Under the pieces are notes generated by a model. That model made no database searches. It worked only from the letters and a program-made list of their open reading frames with translations, and was not told the origin of the DNA. Shown piece after piece: positions 13,932-35,688 of a DNA stretch of 35,983 nucleotides. Numbering within the stretch: the stretch's first letter is position 1; every line of letters begins with the position of its first letter. The position numbers were made by a program, and so were the translations under genes. Origin of the DNA: Bacteriovoracaceae bacterium (GTDB lineage Bacteria > Bdellovibrionota > Bacteriovoracia > Bacteriovoracales > Bacteriovoracaceae); the NCBI GenBank assembly GCA_023137315.1, contig JAGLPP010000024.1:1-35983 (forward strand), read 5' to 3'.

Positions 13932-14872
13932 TGAAAAACTTCATTTTTACATTCATCATGCTTCTTTTGGCAATTCAAATTGTCCGCGCCGAGGTGATTT
14001 TTGATACACATGTTGACAAGGCACTGGCCACAACCAGTGAAGAGATTATCTTCACATTAAATCTCACGAGACCGGAAAGCATAAATCTCTCCATCCCGGA
14101 TATAGGGGACAAAATTGAGGGATTCAGAATTGTTGATTTTGGGGAAAATAAACCAGAGAAGATCGAGGATCATGTACGTCTGCAAAGGTGGTATAAGCTG
14201 AACGCGGATGTTTCCGGCGTCTATATTCTACCCTCGGTGGAAATTGGATATACGGATAAGAATGGAAAAAATCATACAATAAAATCATCCGAGATTTTTG
14301 TTGAATTTGAATCCCCTTACAGCAAGGAAAAAAAGGAAAAGGGTGCCACCCCAAAGGACATAAGAGACATAAAGGATCTTGATCGAATGTCATCCAGTCT
14401 GATTCTTCTTTTTGTTATTATTCTTGTTTGTTTGATTTTAGGTGCGGGAGTATGGTTTTTTATAAAAAGGAAAAATCGCAAGACTGCCATGATTTCAATA
14501 CCTCCTCATGAAAAGGCATTGAATGAACTTGCGGGCATGAAGATGAATGATCTTGAGACCAGGGAAAAATCAAGGATGTTTTCATTTAAACTCAGTTCCG
14601 TTATAAGGGATTATGTCGAGGGAAGATTCAACTTTCCGGCAACAGACCGGACAATTGAGGAGATAAATAAACAAATCAATAATGTTCAAATGGAACAGGA
14701 ACGAAAAAAAATCTTTCTGGAAATTCTTCAAAAGACTGATTTTATAAAATTTACGGATTCAGTGTTGTCAAATGATTCGGGGAAAGAGCTTGTTGAAAAC
14801 AGTAGAAAATTCATTGAGCAGACCATGATTGCGACAAAAACACGTTCGTCGGATGAGGGGGATCTTATATGA
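13928..14872 (+). CDS. Short BatD-like membrane protein
   Basis: The 314-residue protein has a signal peptide (MMKNFIFTFIMLLLAIQIVRA). A periplasmic beta domain of ~130 residues follows, whose opening (VDKALATTSEEIIFTLNL) resembles the first repeat of BatD. One TM helix (SLILLFVIILVCLILGAGVWF) leads to a ~110-residue helical cytoplasmic tail containing SVIRDYVEGRFNFPATDRTIEEI, which recalls the C-terminal part of BatD/DUF4381-type proteins. The start overlaps the previous stop by 4 nt (ATGA), and the end overlaps batA by 4 nt. It is likely a structural partner of the VWA proteins. Confidence 0.75.
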   Translation: MMKNFIFTFIMLLLAIQIVRAEVIFDTHVDKALATTSEEIIFTLNLTRPESINLSIPDIGDKIEGFRIVDFGENKPEKIEDHVRLQRWYKLNADVSGVYILPSVEIGYTDKNGKNHTIKSSEIFVEFESPYSKEKKEKGATPKDIRDIKDLDRMSSSLILLFVIILVCLILGAGVWFFIKRKNRKTAMISIPPHEKALNELAGMKMNDLETREKSRMFSFKLSSVIRDYVEGRFNFPATDRTIEEINKQINNVQMEQERKKIFLEILQKTDFIKFTDSVLSNDSGKELVENSRKFIEQTMIATKTRSSDEGDLI

Positions 14873-28669: not shown

Positions 28670-28746
28670 GGGACTATAGCTCAGTTGGTTAGAGCTCCCG
28701 GCTCATAACCGGGCGGTCCTCTGTTCGAATCAGAGTAGTCCCACCA
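28670..28746 (+). tRNA. tRNA with CAU anticodon (elongator Met, or Ile2 after lysidine modification)
   Basis: A complete cloverleaf with encoded CCA: acceptor GGGACTA/TAGTCCC, D arm from GCTCAGTTGGTTAGAGC, anticodon stem CCCGG/CCGGG around loop CTCATAA, T arm CTCTG-TTCGAAT-CAGAG, then A and CCA. The first base pair is G-C, not the C1xA72 mismatch of initiator tRNA, so it is elongator Met or tRNA-Ile2; sequence alone does not decide. The 3' end doubles as an att-like repeat, marking the start of the accessory region. Confidence 0.93.
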
Positions 28747-28750
28747 TCGA

Positions 28751-28786
28751 AAAAAAAGGTCAACCGAAAGGTTGGCCTTTTTTTTT
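28751..28786 (+). terminator. Intrinsic terminator after the tRNA
   Basis: Ten-base arms AAGGTCAACC and GGTTGGCCTT around a GAAA tetraloop, with one G-T pair, followed by an unbroken T run. It lies 10 nt after the tRNA and is a strong rho-independent terminator. Confidence 0.9.
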
Positions 28787-28819
28787 GATCTTGCTTTACA
28801 TTGTTTTAAATACAGGAAA

Positions 28820-28885
28820 GCCCGGAGGGCGGTCGAGGCAGGGGCCGAAGTGCCGTGGAGACCATGGATGGTCGAGAACGGCCTC
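28820..28885. other. GC-rich structured block after the tRNA
   Basis: In otherwise AT-rich DNA, this block holds nested palindromes: GCCC-GGA-GGGC (28820-28830), GGGGCCG pairing with CGGCCTC (28841-28847 and 28879-28885), and GACCAT-GG-ATGGTC (28860-28873) inside. It has no ORF. It may be a REP-like repeat, a small RNA or a recombination-site accessory structure. Confidence 0.45.
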
Positions 28886-28987
28886 TATGCACACCACTAA
28901 AACTGATTGCAAAAAGAGTGACCCTCTCAAGAAATCAGAATAGTCCCACCATTTTTAAAAAGCCCTGTAACCCAAATCCGCGCGTAA

Positions 28988-29046
28988 GACCCTGAACAGG
29001 GTCATCGGTCCATAGAGACCGCAGAAGTGCGTCCAGTTTTCTGGAC
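28988..29046. repeat. Three consecutive short perfect hairpins
   Basis: GACCCTG-AA-CAGGGTC (28988-29003), CGGTC-6nt-GACCG (29006-29021) and GTCCAG-TTTT-CTGGAC (29031-29046) follow one another. They lie between the att-like repeat and the IS1380-family transposase, possibly inside the IS left end. The remaining stretch 29047-29310 shows no gene and no further strong structure. Confidence 0.5.
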
Positions 29047-29310
29047 CTGATATAAAAAATTACAAAAATTTCCCAAACTAATTTGTCATCGTCGTATTTT
29101 GTCACCAAAACCGTTATTCATTTCAAAAAAATTCCAAAACCTGTCCATCAGCTATGTCCATAGCAAATTATCTCCCCCTATTAACCCAAACTTTTTTCTC
29201 GAGCGTAGGCCAATCACTACCCAAAGACGTGTTTTTCCCCAGAAGGCACACGTCCGCCTTGTGGGAAATAGTTCAGTTGGTTTCCTGATATTAATTATTA
29301 AAGAACTCGC

Positions 29311-30675
29311 TCAGGTTTTACATTCGGAAACCTTGCTAAACATTTTATAAATGTTATTCATAATTTTTTCCAACACCTCCTTGTCAAAAGTATTAAGTCT
29401 TAGTCTTACCTTGCGAGCAGTACGCACCATACGGCACGGTATTTTGATTAATTTGTTTCTTACCTTCTTCGCAAAATATCCCAATTGTATTACAGTCCGA
29501 AGCTTTCCATCTTTACCGCGAACTTTTTTTCTTTTCTGCTCCATACAAAACGACAAAAACCTCATCATGTTATGAGCAAACGTACCCACCAATCCAAAAA
29601 CTTTATTTGCCCCAAGTCTTTGGCAGGGAAAATTTAGAAAATCAAATCCATACTTTTGTTCCTTGATATAATTTTCAGCGGTCGCTCTTTGACGATAAAA
29701 ATCAATAACTTCTTCATCGGACATATCAAAGCTACTTACGTTGGTAATAATCGAATAATAGCAGTATGCTCCTTCCTGAAAATCCTCAAACAAATCCAAC
29801 TGACAGTTTTCTTTCGGCGCTCTGATAAAAACTACTCGTAAATTTCCAAGTCTTTTGATGGGATAAAGTCCCATCGCAACTTCACATTTGTCTGATCCGA
29901 AAAATTGAAGTTCACTCTTTTTCCAGGTCAAAAGATTTTTATTCTTTTTTCTTACGTATCTTCCCAGATTTTCTCTCAAGACTATCGCAAAGTTCACATT
30001 CTTCACCTTAAGCGCATGAAACATTTTATGACTGCAATACGCTGAATCCGCTCGAAACCATCTCTCCATCGAGTCAGGCACCTTTGAAAATAATTTATGA
30101 ACCCAAAGATCAGCATCCTTACCGGAGTAAGTATTTCCGGGACGAAGATCAAAAAGATAGCTGAAGCCATATTGATCATAAGCATTTTGAGAATCACGAC
30201 ACCAATAATTTTTATAATTGAACTTAACTCCCTCCTGTTTTTGCCCACGTTGTACGTGAGGAGTAGAATCCATGGTCAGTATAAACTTTTTGTCGTCAAA
30301 AATTGCCATTCTTAGATTCAATGCCATCTCAAAAAGTAGATCCTGTAATCTTTCGATATGTCTCCTGCCAAAAGTTCTTAAGAAATCTCCCATCGTTCTG
30401 GCCGCAGCTCCACCATCTGTAAGTTCCATAAAAAAACAATCTCTCCTCAACTCATTCAAATCATCCAGACAATCATTGCCAACTGCGAAAGAAAAAAGCA
30501 GTGATTTAAACTTATTTATTTGAGATGGACCTCGATTTCTGTGTTTTTTCGGTAGCATGCGACGAAGCCGCTTCGACAAACTTAACTTATCCCAAAGCTG
30601 GTCAAAAAAAATTAATCCCGAATTTGCAGAAAATACTTCATTTGTTGTTTCGAGTGAGATATTTTTTGTACTCAT
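29311..30675 (-). CDS. IS1380-family transposase
   Basis: The 454-residue DDE transposase has the three acidic signatures in family order: first Asp in FILTMDSTPHVQRGQ, second in MERWFRADSAYCSHKM, and the Glu in FYRQRATAENYIKEQKYGFD. The N-terminal GLIFFDQLWDKL and late GLVGTFAHNMMRF are also IS1380-like. The frame is complete, with AGAGGA before the ATG at 30675, so the gene looks intact. It lies between the att-like repeats and the truncated integrase. Whether it has moved recently cannot be told from one copy. Confidence 0.9.
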   Translation of the reverse strand: MSTKNISLETTNEVFSANSGLIFFDQLWDKLSLSKRLRRMLPKKHRNRGPSQINKFKSLLFSFAVGNDCLDDLNELRRDCFFMELTDGGAAARTMGDFLRTFGRRHIERLQDLLFEMALNLRMAIFDDKKFILTMDSTPHVQRGQKQEGVKFNYKNYWCRDSQNAYDQYGFSYLFDLRPGNTYSGKDADLWVHKLFSKVPDSMERWFRADSAYCSHKMFHALKVKNVNFAIVLRENLGRYVRKKNKNLLTWKKSELQFFGSDKCEVAMGLYPIKRLGNLRVVFIRAPKENCQLDLFEDFQEGAYCYYSIITNVSSFDMSDEEVIDFYRQRATAENYIKEQKYGFDFLNFPCQRLGANKVFGLVGTFAHNMMRFLSFCMEQKRKKVRGKDGKLRTVIQLGYFAKKVRNKLIKIPCRMVRTARKVRLRLNTFDKEVLEKIMNNIYKMFSKVSECKT

Positions 30676-30863
30676 TGAAAATCCTCTTTGGTTGAATTGT
30701 TGTTTTGTGGTGAAATTACAATACTAACCTTAGAGGATTTTTGCATTTTGCAGGGCCGCAAAGTTTCATGCTTTAAACTGGCATTTAGGTGAAAATCGGA
30801 AAATGGACAGATGGCCCGTTATTGCTGCTTATAATTCACATTATATGGAAATTAGTCGCGGAT

Positions 30864-31979
30864 TTAGGTTACAATATTGGCCATTGCTTTTCTCATAATA
30901 TGAGTAGAGCGAAACTCCTTAAAAAGTCCGGCCCGCTTTAATGCCCTATTGTATTGATACTGAATCACTCTGTAGCTGGGTGGTTCTCCATTGATATGAA
31001 AAACAAAATCAAGTCTCTCTCCGGTTGATTCAAAAAAATGCTTACAAGGAATTTTAGAAACGTCACTCAATCGCCTTTCTAAAATTTCCCTCAGGCGATT
31101 ATTAATGTGAACGCATCTCGGTTCCCCGTTTTTGGGAATTTCTTTTAGATATGTGAAGGTATGTCTTTTTATCCACACCGCCACATTAATAATTTCAACC
31201 GAAGATTTACTCAGATTAACATTCGATTTTTGAAGTCCTCCGACTTCCTGAACTCTTGCCGTGGCATAGAACTGAAATTCCGCAAAATCGCGCCAGAATT
31301 GATCTTCAAAGCTGTCAAAGAATAAAAGCACCTGATCTTTAGTCATCTTCTTCTTGCTTTTATTTTTCTTCTTAATCATTCCAATAATCTTATGCCTTGG
31401 AAGAATGGGATTAATAAACCTTGGATCGTAGTTATTCCTATACCAGTTTAAAAACGCACCTAGAATTTTAAGCTCACTATTAAAATCAAAACGTCTGGGA
31501 TTACCAACCACTTTTGCGATTTTTACTTTTTCTTTTAAGTATAAATCCAAAAGCTCTGCTGATAATTCCACCATCTTGAAGTTCATAAGCCCATCAAAAA
31601 ACCTCTGTGCCTTTCGGCCTTTTTCTTCAACCGTTGATCGAGATAGCGTTGGAAAATAATACTCCTGATAGTATTCCCAAATATCGGAAAATCTATACTG
31701 GGTTTTTTCTCCGTTTAAGCTCGCTTGAATAGTCTCAGGTTTTAAATCAGAAAACTTATCCATTCTCGTCGATTCATACTTGGTATAGTTGAGGCTTGGG
31801 TGAAAAGTATTTCTCCAGTGAATCGCCTCACGAATTGAATCAAAATAAGCCGAGTATTGTTTTTTATTTATGGTCTTGCGAACATAAATTTTTCCGCTTA
31901 TTAAATCCTTTCTTAATCCCTTATGTTCCTTGATCGAAACATATCTTTTTTTATCATTTAAGGATTGTTTTTTTCTCAT
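30864..31979 (-). CDS. Tyrosine recombinase lacking its catalytic C-terminus
   Basis: This 371-residue phage-type integrase has an N-terminal arm-binding-like region, a SAM-like core-binding region (~95-180), and the start of the catalytic domain. Catalytic Arg242 is in FYATARVQEVGGL, and the HxxR box is THIMRK at 359-364. The protein stops eight residues later (AMANIVT), before the second His/Trp box and the nucleophilic Tyr. Full-length relatives continue ~40-60 residues. It is therefore probably inactive unless completed elsewhere. The frame does not continue in any of the three reading frames before the IS, ~107 bp beyond. It overlaps the HTH gene by 4 nt. Confidence 0.82.
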   Translation of the reverse strand: MRKKQSLNDKKRYVSIKEHKGLRKDLISGKIYVRKTINKKQYSAYFDSIREAIHWRNTFHPSLNYTKYESTRMDKFSDLKPETIQASLNGEKTQYRFSDIWEYYQEYYFPTLSRSTVEEKGRKAQRFFDGLMNFKMVELSAELLDLYLKEKVKIAKVVGNPRRFDFNSELKILGAFLNWYRNNYDPRFINPILPRHKIIGMIKKKNKSKKKMTKDQVLLFFDSFEDQFWRDFAEFQFYATARVQEVGGLQKSNVNLSKSSVEIINVAVWIKRHTFTYLKEIPKNGEPRCVHINNRLREILERRLSDVSKIPCKHFFESTGERLDFVFHINGEPPSYRVIQYQYNRALKRAGLFKEFRSTHIMRKAMANIVT

Positions 31980-32194
31980 GCTAAATTTCCCTCCATAATC
32001 CAGTTAAGGATTTGGTCAGGAGCAAAAAACAAAAACTTTCCCTTTTTGAACTTAGGTATTTTCTCATCTGAGACAAGATTATAAATATGTCCGATTGAAC
32101 ATCCTAAAAATCTTGCCACGTCTTTTACACGCCATATTTTTTTGTTAAAGAACAATTGATCTCTGTCTTTTTGATCTTCCTCTTTATACACCAT
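31976..32194 (-). CDS. Excisionase-like MerR/HTH_17 DNA-binding protein
   Basis: The 72-residue protein is essentially one winged-helix HTH_17 domain: WRVKDVARFLGCSIGHIYNL then KIPKFKKGKFLFFAPDQIL. This is the usual form of excisionase/recombination directionality factors and of small helix-turn-helix regulators. It sits directly upstream of the integrase with a 4-nt ATGA overlap, as excisionases often do. A GGGGGA ribosome site lies 3 nt before the ATG. It could also regulate the element rather than assist excision. Confidence 0.82.
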   Translation of the reverse strand: MVYKEEDQKDRDQLFFNKKIWRVKDVARFLGCSIGHIYNLVSDEKIPKFKKGKFLFFAPDQILNWIMEGNLA

Positions 32195-32240: not shown

Positions 32241-32978
32241 CTATGTGATTTCAAGCTGTTCAAATTCCTTAATCTCCAAAACTTTCTTTTCTTTATCCCC
32301 ACTTGGAGCCTCCATTATCGCCCGCATTACTTCCTCAAGATTATTCTCAAAAATATGCTTGGAAACGATCATTAAATTGAAGCTTGGCTCATAAATGTTT
32401 TTGTAAGAATTCAAAATATTTTTGGGAATTTGACCATAGCTCCAAACAATATAAAGCACTGTTTGAAACTCATTGCTTCGATGAAGATTTTGCAATTTTT
32501 GCAGAATTCTTTTTCTGGTTTTCCTCTCCTTTTCAACCTCTATCGCCAGAGAAAAATTATTATCAAGCACTACTTCCAAATCCGGTACAAACTCATTTTT
32601 AATTTTAGAATATCGCCTCAAACTTCTTTCCGATATGAAACTAAAATTTCTGTTATAATTTTTCATTTTAACAACAATATTCAGAATATAATCTTCATGT
32701 TCCCATAAGCCCCAAGGTATCTTTTTAATAACTGAAAATGCCTCAACCCCTGATCCTCTTAAATAATCAATTGCCAGTTTTGCCAATCTATAAACATACT
32801 CTCCACTTACAAAATTTTTCTCCCTTATAATTAATTCTTCATCATACAACTTCTTTAATCTCCTCTGCGTTACTCTCAACTTCTCTTCAAAAAATAGCTC
32901 ACATAATCTCGTACAACTTGCATATCTAAAATAATCCAAAAACTTCATTAATCTAATATCTCTCTTTGTTAAAATCAT
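32241..32978 (-). CDS. Replication-relaxation-like protein with a PD-(D/E)xK-like motif
   Basis: A 245-residue product. The N-terminal ~85 residues form a winged-HTH (KRDIRLMKFLDYFRYASCTR; LKKLYDEELIIREKNFVSGE). The C-terminal part contains FVPDLEVVL followed by SLAIEVEKERKTRK, a D-(x)n-ExE/K arrangement seen in replication-relaxation/nuclease-like proteins of mobile elements. The frame opens at a TTG at 32996, but the ATG at 32978 follows a GGGGGAAAGGAA purine tract and is preferred. It is the second gene of the leftward mobile-element operon. Family assignment rests on pattern recall, so a different nuclease-like family is possible. Confidence 0.58.
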   Translation of the reverse strand: MILTKRDIRLMKFLDYFRYASCTRLCELFFEEKLRVTQRRLKKLYDEELIIREKNFVSGEYVYRLAKLAIDYLRGSGVEAFSVIKKIPWGLWEHEDYILNIVVKMKNYNRNFSFISERSLRRYSKIKNEFVPDLEVVLDNNFSLAIEVEKERKTRKRILQKLQNLHRSNEFQTVLYIVWSYGQIPKNILNSYKNIYEPSFNLMIVSKHIFENNLEEVMRAIMEAPSGDKEKKVLEIKEFEQLEIT

Positions 32979-33030
32979 TTCCTTTCCCCCTTGCACACAA
33001 ACTCTTTAAAACTAATAACATTTCGACCGT

Positions 33031-33098
33031 CCCCGCTTCGACGTGACCTCCCTCAATCAAGTAAAACGTAGAGAGAGGGAGGTCACGTCGAAGCGGGG
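33031..33098. repeat. Perfect 24-bp inverted repeat with 20-nt spacer
   Basis: The arms are 33031-33054 and 33075-33098, beginning CCCCGCTTCGACGTGACC, with no mismatch over 24 bp. It is markedly GC-rich against AT-rich flanks. It lies immediately upstream of the replication-relaxation-like gene. A long perfect cruciform here suggests a replication or mobilisation origin, recombination site or bidirectional terminator. The right arm also encodes the end of a small ORF. Confidence 0.85.
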
Positions 33099-33227
33099 TG
33101 GGAGAAATACCTCCTTTTTTAAAAATTTCAATGAATTAAACAGGGCCTCCCTCCGCTTTTCCTGTTCGTAACGATTTACAAGATAACGAACAGCCAATCG
33201 TACTTTAGAAATTTTCACGATGTACAT
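33057..33227 (-). CDS. Small basic protein of 56 residues (probable)
   Basis: This short frame starts at an ATG (33227) with an excellent ribosome site, AAAGGAG, 4 nt upstream. It encodes a Lys/Arg-rich helix-forming peptide (KISKVRLAVRYLVNRYEQEK). Its last ~17 residues (PPRFDVTSLSLRFT) are encoded by the right arm of the 24-bp inverted repeat. If real, it is the first gene of the leftward integrase operon, upstream of the replication-relaxation-like gene. No family is recognised. The strong start signal supports it; the short length and repeat overlap argue for caution. Confidence 0.5.
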   Translation of the reverse strand: MYIVKISKVRLAVRYLVNRYEQEKRREALFNSLKFLKKEVFLPPRFDVTSLSLRFT

Positions 33228-33364: not shown

Positions 33365-33578
33365 AGTGACCAAGATTTTAGTCACTACTTTTTTGAAAAT
33401 TAAAATATTGATTTGTGAGTAATTGAAATTACTCTTTTTTTATTTTTTTTCTAAATTCAGGGGGTGACCAACTTTCTGGTCAGATGAATTTCTTTTTTCT
33501 TAAAAAAAACAATTAACATATTAAAACTATTAATTTTTTTCTTATTTCTATGTGACCAATTTCTTGGTCACATAGAAA
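33365..33578. promoter_or_regulatory. Three related palindromic sites (TGACCA/TGGTCA family)
   Basis: Site 1 (33365-33386) is AGTGACCAAGATTTTAGTCACT. Site 2 (33465-33482) is TGACCA-ACTTTC-TGGTCA. Site 3 (33545-33578) has 15-bp perfect arms, TTTCTATGTGACCAA around TTTC. Their centres are about 98 and 88 bp apart. They look like operators or iterons for one dimeric protein, perhaps the nearby HTH proteins, in the control region between the leftward integrase operon and the rightward cargo. Confidence 0.65.
33417..33442 (+). terminator. Weak hairpin plus T-run
   Basis: GAGTAA-TTGAAA-TTACTC (33417-33434) is followed by seven or eight T. It resembles an AT-rich intrinsic terminator on the plus strand, but no upstream plus-strand gene is visible to terminate, so it may instead be an operator. 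Confidence 0.3.
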
Positions 33579-33907: not shown

Positions 33908-33935
33908 TTGACTGTAATTGGATACACCATATAAT
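33908..33935 (+). promoter_or_regulatory. Strong sigma-70-like promoter for the first Fic gene
   Basis: TTGACT at 33908-33913 and a perfect TATAAT at 33930-33935 are separated by 16 bp. Transcription would begin near 33942, 24 nt before the ATG at 33966. This excludes the upstream TTG (33918) as start. Confidence 0.7.
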
Positions 33936-33965
33936 CAATTAAATTTTTGCTTGATAAGAGTATTT

Positions 33966-34820
33966 ATGGATAAAATGAGTCCCTCTTTGAAAAGAGAGTT
34001 GAAGTTTTATAAAAATCAAATAAGTGATTTCCCTAGTGATAAAACATATGTCACGACTCACGCTGTTATAGATGCACATTTTATTTTACATGATTATTTT
34101 GTTGGTAAAGAACTTGGTGGAAGTCTGTTTGGTATAAAAGACGGCAACATGATTCATTCGGCAGTTCTGAGGCAATTTTCGGAGTTTGGTGGAGTCAAAA
34201 AATATAATACTGAGTATGAGAAGTTTGCTACATTGTATTATGGTCTTAATAAAGATCATGCATTTGTTGATGGTAACAAGAGAACTGCGTTGCTGATATT
34301 GTTATTGTGTCTAGATAAAATTAACAAAACTCTTGAGTTGTCAAATAAAGAGGTTGAGGTGCTCGCTGTTAGAACAGCATCAGGAGAGTTGAATTTATAT
34401 GATCAATATCCAGATGATAAACCAAGTCCTGACGCGGATGTAGAATTTCTTGCATATTATATTCATAAATTTGCAAGAACTATTGATAAAAAAGAGTATA
34501 TCATTTCGTATCGAAAACTAGAAAAAGCATTAATTAGTTTTGATATTTATTTTGATAAACCTAAAAAAGGCAAGATAAGTGTTAGGAAAGTTGTAATAGA
34601 GGGGATTATTTTCGGAAAGAAAGTTAATAAGTTAATTACTAAAGTAATTTTTAAAGGATGGGATAAAGATGTTCCAAAGGACGTAATTAAGCAAATACGG
34701 AAAAAATGTAAACTCCGTCCGGAAGATGGAATAGACTCTAAAATACTATACAGAAAAGCTAGTGTTGTTGATATTATTGCAAAATATAGAGTTCCACTAA
34801 GGAGATTAAGAGATAGGTGA
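33966..34820 (+). CDS. Fic/Doc-type protein 1 with shared C-terminal domain
   Basis: A 284-residue protein. The Fic/Doc core motif is HAFVDGNKRTALL at 98-110, which should form the active-site loop for transfer of AMP or phosphate to a target. The preceding helices (THAVIDAHFILHDYF; EYEKFATLYYGLNK) follow the Doc pattern. No Phd-type antitoxin gene and no clear inhibitory (S/T)xxxE(G/N) motif is visible. Residues ~185-284 form a separate domain (ISYRKLEKAL..., VPKDVIKQIRKKCKL, GIDSK, YRVPLRRL) that is homologous to the end of the neighbouring Fic protein. ATG 33966 has AAGAG upstream and follows the promoter. It ends 13 nt from the convergent partner. Confidence 0.83.
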   Translation: MDKMSPSLKRELKFYKNQISDFPSDKTYVTTHAVIDAHFILHDYFVGKELGGSLFGIKDGNMIHSAVLRQFSEFGGVKKYNTEYEKFATLYYGLNKDHAFVDGNKRTALLILLLCLDKINKTLELSNKEVEVLAVRTASGELNLYDQYPDDKPSPDADVEFLAYYIHKFARTIDKKEYIISYRKLEKALISFDIYFDKPKKGKISVRKVVIEGIIFGKKVNKLITKVIFKGWDKDVPKDVIKQIRKKCKLRPEDGIDSKILYRKASVVDIIAKYRVPLRRLRDR

Positions 34821-34833
34821 AATAAATACAATG

Positions 34834-35688
34834 TCAATATCCAGCAAGTTCCCTTAAAACAACCCTGTGCTCTAATATGAAGTGATCATAGACGCAATCT
34901 GCTTGATGATAGAAACTTTTTGAATCAATTCCTTTTGATTCAGTTAGATCCAGCTTTTTTCGGAGCTTGGCTATCTCTTTTTTTGGTACTTTTTTTCCGT
35001 TGTGACTTGTTCTTAGGGAAATTTTTGTGCTCGTAGCAAAAAGTCCCTTGGAGATGGAAAGAATTTGTCGTTCAGGATAGTATACTGATTTGATTTTAAA
35101 TCTTTTAAGGATTTTGACAAGCTCAGTAACGCTTATTTTTTGATCAGAATTATCATACTTTCTTGTATTTTTGTTAAGCCAGATTTTTATTAAGTTAACT
35201 TCCTGATCCATGTTTTTATCTCCGACCTTAAATTTGTCACTTTGTAAGAAGTTTTGTTCGATTTGAATTGTTTTTTTCAGATTTTTAATTGAGTCTAGGG
35301 ATTTGCATGATATGAAATCATTTAGTCTATGAGCGGCACAAGAAACAAAAAAGCAAAAAAGATGATCTTCTGTAACTTTACCATTGAATGTATATTCATT
35401 CATATCAAGATGTGACAGTAGAGTTACGAGAGCTGTTCTTTTATTTCCATTTTCGAATGGATGGTTTGTAACCAAGCTGTAAGTCAGAGCTGCTGCGCAA
35501 TGTAGGCAGTCCTTGTATTTATCTATCCCATCGTATGATGTATTTTGTACATATATTCCAGACTCTAGAAGGTTCATTGATCTAATAGTGGGCGGGATTG
35601 GTTCAGTATCTAGTGATTTCCTAGAATCTTCTACGAGTTTGTTGTGGATTAGTAGTACATGTGACTTTTTAATTCGTTGTATTTTCAT
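34834..35688 (-). CDS. Fic/Doc-type protein 2 with shared C-terminal domain
   Basis: Also exactly 284 residues. The Doc-like N-terminus (HVLLIHNKLVEDSRKSL; SMNLLESGIYV; CAAALTYSLVT) leads to the core motif NHPFENGNKRTALV, with the catalytic His at 76 and GNKR intact. Residues ~185-284 match the end of Fic protein 1: ISVTELVKILKRFKI, VPKKEIAKLRKKLDL, KGIDSKSFY and HRVVLRELAG. The core Fic domains are otherwise quite diverged. It is transcribed toward the first Fic gene, with 13 bp between stops. A toxin role on elongation factor or another NTP-binding target is inferred from the family; the C-terminal domain may give target choice or self-inhibition. Confidence 0.82.
   Translation of the reverse strand: MKIQRIKKSHVLLIHNKLVEDSRKSLDTEPIPPTIRSMNLLESGIYVQNTSYDGIDKYKDCLHCAAALTYSLVTNHPFENGNKRTALVTLLSHLDMNEYTFNGKVTEDHLFCFFVSCAAHRLNDFISCKSLDSIKNLKKTIQIEQNFLQSDKFKVGDKNMDQEVNLIKIWLNKNTRKYDNSDQKISVTELVKILKRFKIKSVYYPERQILSISKGLFATSTKISLRTSHNGKKVPKKEIAKLRKKLDLTESKGIDSKSFYHQADCVYDHFILEHRVVLRELAGY

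Follow-up and report, generated by a model that had tools for sequence, protein, structure and literature searches.

Results

An inverted repeat in a putative mobilizable element

The window, a stretch of 35,983 nucleotides from a Bacteriovoracaceae bacterium, contains an inverted repeat whose left arm (33031–33054, CCCCGCTTCGACGTGACCTCCCTC) and right arm (33075–33098) are exact reverse complements at 24 of 24 positions across a 20-nt spacer. With spacers of up to 60 nt scanned, the window held no second perfect inverted repeat of more than 15 bp. The GC content is 71% in the arms, 38% across the window and 32% in the 2 kb around the repeat, which confirms the preliminary description of perfect, GC-rich 24-bp arms in AT-rich DNA. 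Relative to shuffled sequences, the folding energy of the repeat gave z-scores of -11.3 (+ strand) and -9.1 (- strand), none of the 200 shuffles folding as well, and an Rfam search of the DNA returned tRNA as the only match. The features discussed below are collected in Table 1.

Table 1. Positions and strands of the inverted repeat, its predicted parts and the neighbouring genes
Feature	Position	Strand	Remarks
Candidate oriT core	33031..33098	- (relaxase strand modelled)	Perfect 24-bp inverted repeat with 20-nt spacer; model match 33093-33036
Conserved 19-nt inner block TGACCTCCCTCTCTCTACG	33067..33085	-	Inner arm and loop start; identical in the C74 copy
Predicted nick GGGAG/GTCACG	33081/33082	+	By analogy with the CloDF13 nick sequence; the slash marks the nick
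MOBC-type relaxase (Replic_Relax-like)	32241..32996	-	Likely start ATG 32978; N-terminal winged helix and C-terminal PD-(D/E)XK nuclease
HTH_17 protein, excisionase-like	31976..32194	-	
Tyrosine integrase	30864..31979	-	Lacks ~50 C-terminal residues, the catalytic Tyr among them, where it meets the IS
IS1380-type insertion sequence	28966..30873	-	22-bp terminal inverted repeats; DDE transposase 29311-30675
Copy of tRNA-Met 3' end	28933..28951	+	18/19 match; probable attachment-site remnant
tRNA-Met	28670..28746	+	Probable integration target

On the minus strand, 34 bp separate the hairpin from the relaxase gene in its longest form, which lies downstream. The order from the hairpin onwards is the relaxase gene, the excisionase-like HTH gene, the tyrosine integrase, the IS1380-type insertion sequence, the copy of the tRNA-Met 3' end and the tRNA gene. 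The integrase ends at the insertion sequence, and a relative in another genome, 47% identical, runs about 50 residues longer. No continuation of the integrase was found beyond the insertion, and inspection of its flanks by eye revealed no obvious target duplication. The 3'-end copy, with one mismatch, is located 205 bp downstream of the tRNA end (within 28728–28951); a GC-rich stretch lies between the two at about 28820–28885. Present here are a truncated integrase, an HTH protein, a relaxase, tRNA-Met and one att-like copy. The whole resembles a mobilizable element integrated at a tRNA gene, with the final part of its integrase missing. Because the contig stops at 35983, before the element's right end, absence of a T4SS from the element is not provable. 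As the integrase has lost its C-terminus at the insertion, the element is probably a stranded copy and, with the integrase broken, may no longer move.

Further features lie on the other side of the hairpin. Three palindromes of the TGACCAA-N5-TGGTCA type, about 90–100 bp apart (33367–33384, 33465–33482 and 33553–33570), have a TGACC core in common with the putative oriT and are operator-like in sequence. They were dropped as candidate relaxase binding sites, a similar cluster being present at C11:15152-15232 of the same genome, where no relaxase was seen. Two convergent Fic/DOC-domain genes stand side by side at 33918–34820 and 34834–35688, adjoining the putative oriT region.

The adjacent gene encodes a MOBC-type relaxase

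The neighbouring gene had been described as replication-relaxation-like, and this was borne out by a Replic_Relax match (E 5e-4) that lies below the Pfam cut-off; the protein scores below the curated cut-offs of both PF13814 and NF041423. MOBC enzymes are PD-(D/E)XK relaxases whose prototype, TraX of pAD1, has an N-terminal winged helix; a covalent intermediate has not been observed with TraX, whose direct-repeat binding site lies 70–120 bp from nic (2025 review, PMC12857230). In the window protein, we identified the motif PD..ExE...K, in which PD, E147 and E149 are invariant and K153 is more than 90% conserved among 20 aligned sequences. Its AlphaFold model (pLDDT 91) consists of a winged helix and an alpha/beta nuclease. 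A Foldseek search with this model returned MarR-type winged helices as the best matches and, weakly (E 3e-3), the restriction-enzyme folds of the small subunit of R.BspD6I and of EcoT38I. Profile alignment with hhalign matched the relaxase of pAM373 through the ExE...K motif (E 5e-7, probability 92) and aligned the same motif with Aeromonas MobC (E 2e-15). Judged by its motif, its winged helix and its relation to known MOBC members, the predicted protein is a MOBC-type relaxase.

The repeat accompanies related relaxase genes

The preliminary description had proposed a search for the same repeat beside related relaxation genes. Using a two-sequence profile, we surveyed 369 genomes of Bdellovibrionota and found relatives of the relaxase in 51 of them; 58 loci were oriented by the relaxase gene and then scanned for inverted repeats. 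By fixed rules or covariance model, a repeat of the same design was present at 47 of the 58 loci, on the same strand as the gene. Three of the 11 loci without it are cut by contig ends. The repeat is mostly located 20–200 bp upstream of the relaxase start, and at several loci just downstream of the gene. Read along the relaxase strand, a constant-length block, approximately YGACCnCnCnCnCnCnACG[AT], lies in the 5' arm and loop, and the outer arms vary between elements. A simple rule, an ACG anchor with a complementary 12-mer, was satisfied on the gene strand at 25 of the 58 loci compared with 0.8% in order-1 shuffles. Coupling-protein domains directly follow the relaxase at nine of the ten loci tested.

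At the DNA level, the only other match to the repeat in the 3.1-Mb genome is on contig C74, where the outer arms differ and the inner 20 nt (TGACCTCCCTCTCTCTACGT, relaxase strand) are identical to those of the window repeat. This copy sits between a run of genes, VirB9/CagX-, VirB10/TrbI- and VirB4-like ones among them, and a relaxase/coupling-protein pair. The C74 relaxase is 39% identical to that of the window and gave no match when compared with plasmids; after it come a coupling-protein fragment and the gene for a group II intron maturase. At locus L013 (93–2449), a coupling-protein ORF (1844–2449) stops just ahead of a group II intron maturase gene (93–1331), and from this arrangement there seems to be a group II intron inside the T4CP gene of the conjugative element. 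A DNA-level search of 59 related genomes found copies of the repeat only in its own genome, because the arms diverge, and a search for related loci among genome contigs and viral contigs found none. As the preliminary description had noted, the right arm encodes part of the tail of a small ORF (56 aa, 33057–33227, minus strand). The similarity of this ORF to one across the C74 copy is confined to the repeat-encoded residues and a few preceding ones, so coding by the right arm looks incidental, and we rejected a coding role for the ORF.

A covariance model recovers the repeat blindly

We built a covariance model, R1, without this genome. Its best match in the window was the hairpin, on the minus strand (E 1e-12), and its top three places in the 3.1-Mb genome were the window repeat, the C74 repeat and C82:1030-1081, all of them beside MOBC-type relaxases. 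One of the three had been missed by the protein search. The C82 place is about 100 bp away from an ORF with a relaxase HMM match at 4e-24, and SSB-, HTH- and integrase-like ORFs (named by eye) come after that ORF. All places with E below 0.1 in this genome are beside relaxases, and a fourth place, on C111 (E 0.8) and without a relaxase, was treated as chance.

Across the phylum, R1 had matches at E 1e-4 or better in 180 of the 369 genomes, with a false-positive rate based on E-values and on the genome of the window. Of the best 30 loci, 24 have a relaxase no more than 1.5 kb away, encoded on the strand of the match. Of the 21 among these 30 that are outside the training set, 15 have such a relaxase and four do not, and the remaining two are truncated by contig ends. 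One of the four has a possible divergent relaxase ORF with an integrase-like ORF alongside. Strong matches for which no relaxase was found in the vicinity were located beside a tyrosine integrase (L126, 9294–9348), a serine recombinase (L127, 761–814) and a fragment resembling the window integrase (L128, 5426–5479). Some of these loci may be relaxase-less mobilizable elements.

Pairing of the arms was examined in 25 repeats, none from this genome. All 16 pairs vary on both sides and 95.5% of cells pair, a value that is partly circular as the repeats were selected for complementarity; with the partners slid out of register, pairing falls to 31–47%. In loci outside the training set, where the model permits G-U, we counted 505 Watson–Crick, 10 G-U and 17 mismatched cells, and in a table counting both strands G-U is restricted to the outer four pairs. 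The near-absence of G-U pairs argues for a DNA-level constraint on arm pairing rather than one on RNA.

Comparison with known MOBC systems

The MOBC relaxase of the Enterococcus faecalis plasmid pAM373 belongs, like that of pAD1, to the TraX group. R1 matched pAM373, which is typed MOBC, at 14425–14495 (E 5e-5). Like the window, it has a perfect inverted repeat, here of 25 bp, with the same TGACC-N11-ACG block (TGACCATTTTAGCGCAACG, relaxase strand) upstream of the MOBC relaxase; unlike the window, its inner block is A/T-rich after TGACC and its loop is 27 nt. R1 matched the strand opposite the relaxase gene, although it is the gene strand that carries the 19-nt block; this block is about 630 bp away from the start of the relaxase. 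Five 12-bp direct repeats lie close to the pAM373 repeat, whereas no tandem direct repeats of this binding-site kind, a trait known for one prototype only, were seen beside the window hairpin. We take the 14425–14495 repeat to be the oriT region mapped by Francia and Clewell (2002).

In CloDF13 (MobB/MobC), the founder of MOBC, GGGTGGTCGGG occurs once, within an inverted repeat with TGACCACCC/GGGTGGTC arms that precedes the mob genes, but in contrast to the window the arms are imperfect and the spacer is 47 nt. The R1 search missed both CloDF13 and the Aeromonas MobC plasmid. The GGGTGGTCGGG of CloDF13 is presumably the nick sequence of Nunez and de la Cruz (2001).

The same repeat (E 5e-12 to 2e-11) was also found on pBdHAGR1, pBdHAGR4 and pBdHAGR5 of Bdellovibrio sp. 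HAGR004 (L090, L091 and L093). It precedes a MOBC-like gene by a short distance, and on pBdHAGR4 a T4CP-type ATPase lies downstream. These differ from the window in being plasmids; their MOBC-like genes are annotated as hypothetical and their MOB-suite type is non-mobilizable.

Discussion

The repeat, its association with relaxase genes, its orientation, the covariation of its arms, the family of the relaxase and the neighbouring coupling-protein genes lead us to conclude that the hairpin is very probably the oriT of a MOBC integrative mobilizable element at the tRNA-Met gene. The preliminary description had left open an origin, a mobilisation site or a terminator; the survey favours the mobilisation site, and the terminator found no support.

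Among other explanations, a regulatory element in the relaxase leader, either an operator or an RNA hairpin, that governs expression of the gene and is not nicked would suit the usual position upstream of the gene on its strand and the strong RNA fold. It is nevertheless improbable, given the repeats just downstream of the relaxase gene, those beside integrases with no relaxase nearby, the scarcity of G-U pairs and the distance between block and relaxase start in a known MOBC plasmid, pAM373. Somewhat less probable still is that the excised circle uses the repeat as a single- or double-strand replication origin, with the relaxase as a rolling circle initiator, and that the repeat has no role in transfer. 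The coupling-protein genes that follow the relaxase are required for transfer only, and the C74 copy lies within a secretion-system locus; these points weigh against such an origin, even though the gene family is named for replication-relaxation and MOBC relaxases are reported to serve also as replication or recombination proteins (PMC5714925). An intrinsic terminator or a dispersed REP/MITE-like repeat, suggested by the GC-rich stem and by a small stem resembling a terminator, T-run included, immediately to the right of the right arm, is largely refuted: neither arm is followed by a T-run on either strand, the weak terminator-like matches belong to that different, smaller stem, G-U pairs are hardly tolerated in the arms, the outer arms vary in sequence from one element to another, the one near DNA-level copy in 3.1 Mb is at another relaxase, and other arm matches with three mismatches are no more numerous in the genome than in a reversed control.

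Under the oriT reading, we infer nicking, a nick position, transfer and a helper for the window element as follows. The winged helix of the adjacent MOBC relaxase would bind the hairpin site, and its PD-(D/E)XK domain would nick a single strand within or close to the inner block (TGACC...CTACG). Analogy with CloDF13 suggests the plus-strand position in Table 1, with the mirror site 33048/33047 (-) as an alternative. The nicked strand would exit via type IV machinery supplied by a conjugative element resident in the same cell; the C74 element, with its identical 20-nt inner block, is a plausible helper. The outer arms would require complementarity alone, probably so that the single strand refolds to a hairpin for re-joining. 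Replication of the excised circle from the same nick would be compatible with this scheme.

We give about even chances to a broader proposal, in which MOBC relaxases of different phyla share the TGACC-N11-ACG hairpin as a general oriT signature, with the nick falling within or close to the inner block. The hairpin would also mark relaxase-less elements, beside integrases, that borrow the MOBC relaxase of another element, so that around half of Bdellovibrionota genomes would carry unrecognised mobilizable islands. The candidate oriT itself belongs to a known kind; the useful parts are the phylum-wide signature, the strict DNA-level pairing and the possible relaxase-less copies. MOBC is among the less studied relaxase families, and the signature makes oriTs predictable where current typing reads non-mobilizable. 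With an inner block that is constant and arms that are free, the repeats offer natural variants for the study of specificity. Within one genome, there may be pairs of helper and hitchhiker elements, and the findings suggest that a largely predatory phylum exchanges DNA by conjugation-type elements.
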